Positions 4,261 through 56,812 of a stretch of DNA of 64,000 bases are shown here, one piece after another (position 1 is the first letter of the stretch; every line of letters begins with the position of its first letter). The DNA comes from Dehalococcoidia bacterium (lineage in GTDB: Bacteria; Chloroflexota; Dehalococcoidia; Lucifugimonadales; Australimonadaceae), in NCBI GenBank assembly GCA_022449765.1, contig JAKUPZ010000001.1, positions 1 to 64,000 on the forward strand, written 5' to 3'. A model generated the notes under the pieces. The model did not search any database and was not told the DNA's origin. It saw only the letters and a list, made by a program, of their open reading frames with translations. The position numbers were made by a program, and so were the translations under genes.

Positions 4261-7245
<2,985 letters not shown>

Positions 7246-7255
7246 ATAAAATTCT

Positions 7256-7282
7256 ACTCACTCGAATTCTCTTGTTAACGTG
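7256..7282 (+). repeat. 3' arm of the pre-23S processing stem
   Basis: This arm is complementary to 4125-4152, with 27 nt pairing and one bulged base on the 5' side. It starts 11 nt after the mature 23S end and finishes 29 nt before the tRNA. The same cleavage would therefore release the tRNA-bearing tail. Confidence 0.85.
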
Positions 7283-7310
7283 TTCCCCATTTGATAAGTC
7301 AGGATTTCGA

Positions 7311-7385
7311 TGCGGGGTGGAGCAGTGGCAGCTCGTCGGGCTCATAACCCGAAGGTCCCAGGTTCGAGTCCTGGCCCCGCTACCA
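7311..7385 (+). tRNA. Initiator tRNA-Met (CAU), CCA encoded
   Basis: The 75-nt sequence folds as a cloverleaf with anticodon loop CTCATAA and an encoded CCA. It has the initiator hallmarks: three G-C pairs at the base of the anticodon stem (GGG/CCC), a mismatched 1-72 pair (U1:U72), and an A11-U24 D-stem pair. The T-arm is GGTTCGAGTCC-like. It lies 65 bp after 23S and is probably co-transcribed with it. The minus-strand open frame over it is an artefact. Confidence 0.96.
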
Positions 7386-38705: not shown

Positions 38706-38718
38706 TATATATTTTAAG

Positions 38719-38832
38719 CTGGCGGTGACCTATTTTCCCAGCAAGTTGCCCTACCAGTATCGTAAGCGCTGGAGCGTTTCACTTCCGTGTTCGGGATGGG
38801 TACGGGTGGGTCCACTCCGCTCAAACCACCAA
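38719..38832 (-). rRNA. rrf: 5S ribosomal RNA
   Basis: On the minus strand the ~114-nt sequence has the 5S landmarks CCATCCCGAACACGG and AACGCTCCAGC. Helix I pairs TGGTGGT at the 5' end with ACCGCCA at the 3' end. It has its own promoter upstream and its own terminator downstream. It is 31 kb from 23S and on the opposite strand. Ends are set from helix I and may be off by one or two bases. Confidence 0.97.
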
Positions 38833-38839
38833 CTAGAAT

Positions 38840-38868
38840 ATGATAATTCTCTCTGGATTAATTGTCAA
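38840..38868 (-). promoter_or_regulatory. Promoter of 5S rRNA
   Basis: On the minus strand a perfect TTGACA (38868-38863), 17 bp, then TATCAT (38845-38840). The expected start (about 38833) coincides with the mature 5' end of 5S, so little or no 5' trimming would be needed. Confidence 0.8.
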
Positions 38869-38874
38869 CACTGA

Positions 38875-38916
38875 TTTTTCCGTTCCAGCAGTCTATAGAC
38901 TGCTGGAACGGAAAAA
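38875..38916. repeat. 42-nt perfect palindrome
   Basis: Bases 38875-38916 are fully self-complementary with no spacer, centred on TATA-type bases at 38895/38896. Each half begins TTTTTCCGTTCCAGCAG. It lies between the 5S promoter (6 bp away) and the rplS promoter. T-runs precede and A-runs follow on both strands, the reverse of an intrinsic terminator. Confidence 0.9.
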
Positions 38917-38974: not shown

Positions 38975-39003
38975 TTGCTGTTTTTAAGTGAGGAAACTAT
39001 AAT
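38975..39003 (+). promoter_or_regulatory. Promoter of rplS
   Basis: A perfect TATAAT (38998-39003) has TTGCTG (38975-38980) exactly 17 bp upstream. The leader to the rplS ATG is about 32 nt and includes AGGTG as ribosome site. Confidence 0.6.
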
Positions 39004-39041: not shown

Positions 39042-39395
39042 ATGGAACCGCGTGATGTAGTGGCTCTTGTGCCAAACGAAAAAATTTGTGAATTCCAATC
39101 GGGCGACACTGTAAAAGTAAATGTTTGGATTCGAGAAGGTGAGCGCCAAAGGTTACAAGGATTCCAAGGTGTTGTACTTCGCAAGAGGGCTGGTGGACCT
39201 TCTAGTTCTTTTACCGTGAGAAGAGTAGCTTCAGGTATTGGCGTAGAACGTTCATTTTTCTTCCACTCACCCAATGTAGAAAGCGTAGAGTTAGTTCGTA
39301 AGGGTATAGTCAGGCGTGCTAAGCTCTACTACTTAAGAGGCTTATCAGGTAAAGCTGCACGGATCAAGGAACGTACTATTGGCGGTAAGCGCTAG
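39042..39395 (+). CDS. rplS: 50S ribosomal protein L19
   Basis: L19 sits at the subunit interface of the large subunit. The 117-residue basic protein has the family segments [34 protein letters not shown] and [20 protein letters not shown]. The common neighbours trmD and rimM are not here; priA follows instead. Confidence 0.97.
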
Positions 39396-54817: not shown

Positions 54818-56812
54818 TTACTGCAACTGGAAGAATAGCAAGATAACTACTACTCCTAGCGAAACTCCTAATCCATAAACTTGAGCCTGTCCAGTTTGAA
54901 GCTGCGCAATGGCTTTTCCGCTATTGCGCCCCAACCATCCGAGGCAATTAACACTGCCATCTACGATCCATTTGTCCATTAGATGTGAGAAATTGAATAG
55001 GCCTTTGTATAGAACTCTCTTTACGATCAGGCCTTCATAAAGGTGATCTAGATAAAACCGGTTCGATAATATTTTTTGGGAGAATACTCCAAGTATAGTC
55101 GGATTTGTTAGTTCAGAAATCCCTTTGCGATAAAGATTAATTGCGTACGTAATACCTGCTAAAGCTGTAAATGTGGATATAGATGCAATCAATATGTTGA
55201 AAGCAGGTGCTTTTTCGTGAAGGAAATGTGAAAACCAATGGGCTTCAATAAATCCAAGATCCATTATCGAATTAGCTACTAGACCCGAAAAAATTGCTAA
55301 GATAGCCAAAATACCCATAGGGAAAGTCATTACTTTGGGAGATTCGTGTTTGTGGGTGTGGAGGTCAGATTCCTCAGGGATACGTTCCTCTAACGGCACT
55401 GAATCGACGCCTCCTCGGAAATCTCCGTGAAAAGTTAAGAGCATTAGGCGCGTGATGTAAAAGGCGGTTAAAAACGCTGCTGCCAGCGCCAAGAAAAAAA
55501 CAATTTTGCCAACGGAGTCCGTATTGGAGAACGCGGAAGATAGGACTTCGTCTTTAGACCAAAAACCGGCGAGAGGGAAAATTCCTGCAAGGCTCAGGCT
55601 TGCGATTAGAGTAGTTACGTACGTTACCGGCATCCACTTTCGAATACCACCCATATAACGCATATCAAACGTGTGGACGGAATGATGAACAGAGCCAGCA
55701 CCTAAGAAGAGCAGACATTTAAAGAAGGCATGATTGAAAAGATGGAACATTGCGACACCTGGCGCACCAACTCCTATTGCTAAGAACATATAGCCAAGTT
55801 GACTCACAGTAGAAAAAGCCAATACTCGTTTTATATCGTTAGCAACTAATCCCATTAATGCAGCAAATATTGCCGTAAATCCACCAATAAGAGCTACTGT
55901 ATTCATAGCTGTAGTACTTACTGCAAATAAATCAAATAATCGAGCGACGAGAAATACTCCTGCAGCAACCATGGTTGCTGCGTGAATTAAGGAGCTAACT
56001 GGAGTGGGGCCTTCCATAGCGTCGGGTAGCCATGTGTGCAATGGAAATTGAGCAGATTTTCCGATTGCTCCAGCGAACAGACCTAGTGCAACCCAAGTCG
56101 CTACTCCAGGTCCTAAGAGAGGGGCCATTTCACTGATGGCAGGAATTTCAAGCGGATTTAGGCCACGTTCAATAAATTCGAAACGGTTAAAGAAGAGATA
56201 GAGGATACCGATCATAAAACCGAAATCACCAATCCGAGTAACAATAAATGCTTTTTTTGCAGCAGCAGCAGCAGCAGGTCTGTGGTACCAGAAGCCGATT
56301 AATAGGTATGAGAACAATCCAACAAGCTCCCAAAAGACAAACATTTGCAATAGATTGTAGGCAAGCACTAGGCCTAACATTGACGAGGTAAATAATGAGA
56401 GATAGGCAAAATACCGTGGGTAATCCGACCATGGTGATTCCAGAGAATCGACATCTTTTCGCATATACCCCAATGAGTATATTTGAACAAGCATACTTAC
56501 TCCTGAGACTATTGCTGTCATGATCGCTGACAAAGGATCAAGCAATATTCCAACAGTCATTTCAAAAGATGTGCTGCTCCCTTTTTCTCCAATGGTGAAC
56601 CACGTATGAGCGGAAAAGTTAGGATCCGAATGTTCTAAAATTGAGTAGATGGCAATGAGGCTTAATATAAATGCAACTGCTACTCCAAATATCCCCACGT
56701 AACCTGAGAATTTCCAAAGCTTTGAGTTCCAAGGCCGGATTAAGAAAATGATCGATAGCCCCGCCATTAGCGGAGCACCAATTATCAGCCATGATAACGT
56801 TTCAGATATCAT
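54818..56812 (-). CDS. nuoL: NADH-quinone oxidoreductase subunit L
   Basis: NuoL is the distal pump subunit with the long lateral helix. The 664-residue protein has FVFWELVGLFSYLLIGFW, KSAQFPLHTWLPDAMEGPTP and DIKRVLAFSTVSQLGYM. A C-terminal part reaches across the membrane arm. The alanine run HRPAAAAAAKKAFIV is coded by repeated GCA-type codons (near 56256-56274) but matches the family. Its ATG abuts the stop of the small 64-residue gene upstream. Confidence 0.97.
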   Translation of the reverse strand: MISETLSWLIIGAPLMAGLSIIFLIRPWNSKLWKFSGYVGIFGVAVAFILSLIAIYSILEHSDPNFSAHTWFTIGEKGSSTSFEMTVGILLDPLSAIMTAIVSGVSMLVQIYSLGYMRKDVDSLESPWSDYPRYFAYLSLFTSSMLGLVLAYNLLQMFVFWELVGLFSYLLIGFWYHRPAAAAAAKKAFIVTRIGDFGFMIGILYLFFNRFEFIERGLNPLEIPAISEMAPLLGPGVATWVALGLFAGAIGKSAQFPLHTWLPDAMEGPTPVSSLIHAATMVAAGVFLVARLFDLFAVSTTAMNTVALIGGFTAIFAALMGLVANDIKRVLAFSTVSQLGYMFLAIGVGAPGVAMFHLFNHAFFKCLLFLGAGSVHHSVHTFDMRYMGGIRKWMPVTYVTTLIASLSLAGIFPLAGFWSKDEVLSSAFSNTDSVGKIVFFLALAAAFLTAFYITRLMLLTFHGDFRGGVDSVPLEERIPEESDLHTHKHESPKVMTFPMGILAILAIFSGLVANSIMDLGFIEAHWFSHFLHEKAPAFNILIASISTFTALAGITYAINLYRKGISELTNPTILGVFSQKILSNRFYLDHLYEGLIVKRVLYKGLFNFSHLMDKWIVDGSVNCLGWLGRNSGKAIAQLQTGQAQVYGLGVSLGVVVILLFFQLQ

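Follow-up and report, generated by a model that had tools for sequence, protein, structure and literature searches.

Class I activator sites occupy the classical upstream-activator position, in which a dyad is centred near -61.5. The targets of telomere resolvases are perfect palindromes similar in length to the 42-nt element described here. Inverted repeats are reported to be enriched in bacterial promoter regions (PMC6060812; PMC13155455), and those of bacteria prefer a 4-bp spacer (PMC13155455). According to one proposal, template switching gives rise to perfect stems and preserves them by way of multibase compensatory changes (PMC8794818).

The palindrome that separates the 5S rRNA and rplS promoters of a marine SAR202 bacterium can be compared with each of these systems. 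Like a class I activator site at a sigma-70-type promoter, it has an 18-bp dyad core centred at -62.5 whose distance from the -35 box is fixed in two species. Unlike such a site, the core is embedded in a longer palindrome, itself perfect, and the changes in one outer arm are mirrored in the other. Perfect arms, the lack of a spacer, and a location between divergent genes are shared with cruciform-forming promoter inverted repeats, but the 5S element differs from these in its conserved core, its unusual length, and a zero spacer that is atypical for bacteria. As in quasipalindromic repeats homogenised by template switching, the changes are clustered and mirrored and leave the arms fully complementary, yet the position, length, and core of the 5S element persist across the two species to a degree that mutation alone would not predict. 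Finally, it resembles telomere-resolvase sites in being a perfect palindrome of similar length. However, a site of this type is rejected, because the genome gives no match to the telomere resolvase family PF16684 (the ResT/TelK catalytic domain) and because the palindrome does not end the DNA, which runs on to either side with gene order conserved.

Mirrored changes in perfect palindromes are usually read as evidence for an RNA stem. Because no transcript is expected at the 5S element, the locus offers a natural test of selection on DNA symmetry versus template-switch mutation. The mirror symmetry has been kept together with the 18-base core, probably because the element controls the 5S promoter. 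If the element is regulatory, it would represent a control point for 5S rRNA, along with L19, in ocean bacteria that are abundant and uncultured and have their 5S gene apart from the 23S gene. Our literature searches turned up no account of an element like this from SAR202.

The palindrome and its flanking promoters

The window analysed here is a 64-kb stretch of DNA from a 1.61-Mb, 97%-complete genome (G000). Positions 38875-38916 of the window carry TTTTTCCGTTCCAGCAGTCTATAGACTGCTGGAACGGAAAAA, a perfect 42-nt palindrome with zero spacer, as established by sequence reading and a repeat finder. Its arms, TTTTTCCGTTCCAGCAGTCTA and TAGACTGCTGGAACGGAAAAA, are 21 bp each, and 21/21 pairs match. The number of such palindromes expected by chance at this composition is approximately 2e-8 per 64-kb window and 5e-7 per 1.61-Mb genome. 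Our census of palindromes covered part of each genome, 1.25 Mb in G000 and 1.17 Mb in its sister species, SAR202 cluster bacterium OSU_TB62 (G001; VFHU01000002.1), and the searches for copies covered whole genomes. Order-3 Markov controls of the sampled 1.25 Mb of G000 yielded no arms longer than 10 bp. At arm lengths of 6-9 bp, spacer-free palindromes are as frequent as the Markov controls predict, and the real genomes show a tail of longer ones. Among spacer-free palindromes, the 5S-rplS one exceeds all others in length in the sampled part of G000, and its counterpart does so in the sampled part of G001. The 42-nt sequence is predicted to fold into a hairpin with a 19-bp stem and a 4-nt loop, with energies of -22.5 kcal/mol (z -10.2) in G000 and -21.6 kcal/mol (z about -12) in G001. 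By this prediction, the perfect arms could form stable hairpins, as is expected of cruciform-forming inverted repeats. An assembly artefact is rejected because two separately assembled genomes both have a perfect palindrome at this site, with letters that differ between them, and gene order runs on at both sides.

Promoters, start sites, and the identity of rplS are all read from the sequence. On the minus strand, the 5S rRNA gene (38717-38833; Rfam RF00001) is the sole 5S match found in G000, and its transcript is inferred to start near 38833, the 5′ end of the gene. The 5S promoter (38840-38868, minus strand) comprises TTGACA (38868-38863), a 17-bp spacer, and TATCAT (38845-38840), and both TTGACA and the 17-bp spacer are also present in the sister species. 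Measured from the predicted 5S start, the palindrome extends from -42 to -83 with its centre at -62.5, and 6 nt separate it from TTGACA. Its outermost T/A tract (38875-38879) reads on the 5S (minus) strand as an A-tract at -46 to -42, which, going by known promoter anatomy, would be the position of a proximal UP-element subsite, and the sister species has an A-tract as well. The plus strand carries the rplS promoter (38975-39003), with TTGCTG (38975-38980), a 17-bp spacer, and TATAAT (38998-39003), which is conserved in the sister species. This promoter precedes rplS (39042-39395, plus strand), encoding ribosomal protein L19 of 117 aa. Relative to the predicted rplS start, the palindrome lies at about -94 to -135.

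Both promoters point away from the palindrome, and no transcription through it is predicted from the flanking genes, which makes a DNA-level role likely. An intrinsic terminator is rejected because a U-tract precedes and an A-tract follows the stem on either strand, and the neighbouring genes are transcribed away from it. These results agree with the initial annotation, which had described a perfect, spacer-free 42-nt palindrome very unlikely to arise by chance, had placed it directly upstream of the 5S -35 box, and had held that it is not an intrinsic terminator.

The 5S gene is solitary in the window, at more than 31 kb from the 23S rRNA gene. Positions 4261-7382 hold 23S rRNA and, after it, a tRNA; no 5S adjoins them, and the window contains no 16S gene.

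Comparison with the sister species and more distant relatives

In G001, which is the sole congener compared, the gap between the same two genes contains TTTTCCTAGCGAAGCAGTCTATAGACTGCTTCGCTAGGAAAA, which is also a perfect palindrome of 42 nt located 6 nt from TTGACA. The central 18 nt, AGCAGTCTATAGACTGCT (38887-38904), are identical at 18/18 positions, whereas identity is 66% in the adjacent spacer and 64% in the 5S promoter. The element is carried by two species only, and its conservation thus represents one comparison. An ungapped alignment of the two species shows seven differences among the 21 positions of an arm (positions 10-15 and 17 from the centre), and every one of these differences is mirrored. 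A gapped alternative with one indel per arm leaves five or six arm differences. Most of the differing positions lie in the left arm block CCGTTCC (38880-38886), each mirrored in the right arm block GGAACGG (38905-38911). Had each arm changed on its own at the local rate, the probability of these mirrored differences would be about 1e-9, which excludes independent arm evolution. It had been suggested in the initial annotation that absence from close relatives, together with the lack of any other copy, would favour a recent local inversion-duplication. This scenario fails, because the compared congener has a palindrome at that place with different arms.

Arm divergence per pair (33%, 7/21) is approximately that of the neighbouring spacer (34%), so the arms drift as one unit. 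Such drift is a prediction of arm-to-arm template switching, with or without added selection (for the mechanism, see PMC8794818). As a control, other palindromes of G000 were compared with G001. Most gene-internal palindromes are not palindromic in G001, and hairpins at transcript ends co-vary. Given these two patterns, the 5S element behaves like the constrained class, though it is apparently untranscribed.

No second copy of the palindrome exists anywhere in the whole G000 genome with up to 3 mismatches, and there is one copy per genome. In a search of 250 genomes in the order, with one mismatch allowed, both genus members had a single AGCAGTCTATAGACTGCT apiece and the remaining 248 genomes had none. 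Exact matches occur in two unrelated genomes, near the chance rate, and viral contigs gave no match to the core. Among the 5S loci of 28 other relatives, no palindrome like the 42-nt one is present in the 5S promoter region, and the hairpins near 5S in these loci are mostly G+C-rich and terminator-like. In one member of the same family but another genus (G006), 5S and rplS are adjacent and divergent with no palindrome, and therefore the element is not needed for the divergent order as such.

Parts of the core do recur. Of the 4096 palindromes of 12 nt, no other is as strongly over-represented as its inner AGTCTATAGACT in either sampled genome (4 copies vs 0.03 expected). These copies are partly paralogous, as 2/4 in sampled G000 lie inside the starts of related genes, and two of those in G001 lie beside a repeated tRNA-like 3′ end. 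The shorter GTCTATAGAC occurs 6 and 7 times in G000 and G001, respectively, vs 1 and 0 times for a reversed control, and the two species retain it at two orthologous sites, one 3′ of modB and the other between two convergent genes. The modB site of G000 (L074:306-337; G000:C4:100306-100337) is flanked by modB and a CcdA-like gene and forms a perfect palindrome of 32 nt, TAAATTTAGATGTCTATAGACATCTAAATTTA. Only the core AGTCTATAGACT is kept at this site in G001, and the 32-nt extension exists in G000 alone. The recurrent sites elsewhere are not at ribosomal genes. They speak for a core whose role is sequence-specific, and their statistical weight is modest.

A separate observation concerns two G001 sites about 3 kb apart (L104:1501 and L106:1501; G001:C8:51751 and 54694), at which GTCTATAGAC adjoins the same tRNA-like 3′ end. 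This pair has the appearance of either a duplication or a site of integration.

Possible roles of the palindrome

The most economical reading takes the palindrome for a cis element that serves the 5S promoter at the DNA level, is specific to the genus, and is possibly shared with the divergent promoter of rplS. We tentatively give this reading a probability of roughly 45%, and both a cruciform and a neutral template-switch palindrome are live rivals. If the reading is correct, a dimeric DNA-binding protein would probably bind the 18-nt core through 9-bp half-sites centred at -62.5 and act on the 5S promoter, and the outer A-tract beside the -35 box would serve as part of an UP element. The arms might stay complementary because symmetry is useful, either as a second symmetric contact or through extrusion of a hairpin or cruciform. 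In addition, or instead, template switching between the arms might copy each change in one arm into the other.

Several results count for a cis element. The place, the 42-nt length, and the 6-nt spacing to TTGACA are the same in both species, and the core is identical at 18/18 positions compared with about 64-66% identity in its flanks. The seven mirrored arm differences (~1e-9 if independent), and the over-representation of AGTCTATAGACT together with the orthologous GTCTATAGAC sites, also count in its favour. So do the outward-pointing flanking promoters, with no predicted transcription across the element, and the contrast with gene-internal palindromes in the control comparison. A dyad centre at -62.5 from the predicted start, with a 6-nt gap to the -35 box in both species, is the geometry of a class I activator site. 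Against this reading, a plain operator would not need a symmetric, variable arm block, and the recurrent core sites are away from ribosomal genes, with 2/4 in sampled G000 lying inside paralogous coding sequences. The operator proposed in the initial annotation is supported in part: in the sister species its 18-bp core is fully conserved and its spacing from the 5S -35 box is unchanged, and its centre recurs, but the other sites are not near ribosomal genes and so give no support to a ribosomal regulon.

The core segment GTCTATAGAC at 38891-38900 fits GTNTATANAC, the HutC/GntR operator consensus. Despite this fit, a HutC/GntR operator is rejected because G000 has no UTRA-domain regulator; the UTRA domain (PF07702) gave no match in the 97%-complete genome, with positive controls.

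Perhaps the palindrome is instead an old one that has no current function and whose arms are homogenised by template switching in replication, an explanation that we regard as somewhat unlikely. The near equality of arm and spacer divergence (33% and 34%) is what would be expected if each pair drifts as a unit. The clustering of the arm changes, the stem maintenance proposed in PMC8794818, and an excess of long palindromes even within G000 genes are likewise consistent with neutrality. However, neutral drift does not predict an 18/18 core or equal length and promoter spacing in both species, and most gene-internal palindromes of G000 have no palindromic counterpart in G001, so mutation alone does not keep them. 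Furthermore, both G000 and G001 encode SbcD, a subunit of a palindrome-attacking nuclease.

A cruciform element was among the roles proposed in the initial annotation, and it is also conceivable, although unlikely, that the palindrome responds to torsion. Two divergent ribosomal promoters 177 bp apart would generate negative supercoiling between them, and the palindrome, predicted to extrude as a cruciform with 19-bp stems, would absorb this stress and tune both promoters, leaving its letters free to drift while symmetry holds. A perfect, spacer-free palindrome whose strands are predicted to form stable hairpins in both species, symmetry retained through paired changes while the letters differ, a site between divergent promoters, and the reported promoter-region enrichment of inverted repeats (PMC6060812; PMC13155455) all favour this proposal. 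Nevertheless, a cruciform leaves the fully conserved 18-nt core and its recurrence elsewhere unexplained, and the confamilial G006 has the same adjacent, divergent genes without a palindrome.

A combination of these ideas, in which a conserved protein-binding core at the promoter of a stand-alone 5S gene lies inside a palindrome selected for symmetry itself, such that DNA shape (a hairpin or cruciform under supercoiling from the two divergent ribosomal promoters) and protein jointly set the output of 5S and L19, seems to us rather unlikely.

We consider it improbable that the palindrome encodes an RNA hairpin of an unannotated transcript (a small RNA, leader, or terminator) running across the gap. 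Its co-variation does resemble the pattern that hairpins at transcript ends show in these two genomes, but the element lies upstream of each recognisable promoter, as seen in that promoter's own direction, the tracts bordering the stem are wrong for a terminator on either strand, and the palindrome matches no Rfam family. Least credible is the mobile repeat raised in the initial annotation: a solitary remnant of a REP/MITE-type element would be palindromic, intergenic, and confined to one genus as observed, but a dispersed repeat is rejected by the single copy per genome (up to 3 mismatches), and the core is found in no other genome among the 250 searched in the order and in no viral contig, with its two matches in unrelated genomes at about the chance rate.

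Other palindromes in the two genomes

Three shorter palindromes were also noted. A 30-nt perfect palindrome (L053:15398-15427; G000:C13) lies inside an ORF of 557 aa with a shikimate kinase-like N-terminus, and the sampled sister-species sequence has no stretch orthologous to it. At 55962-55981 of the window, a 20-nt coding palindrome, GCAGCAACCATGGTTGCTGC, has the same letters in both species and lies within well-conserved sequence, as ordinary sequence conservation would give. Lastly, a 40-nt perfect palindrome (L049:17888-17927; G000:C9) follows an ammonium-transporter-like gene. Its G001 version is a slightly imperfect hairpin in which the changes are mirrored, and the palindrome is probably a transcript-end structure.
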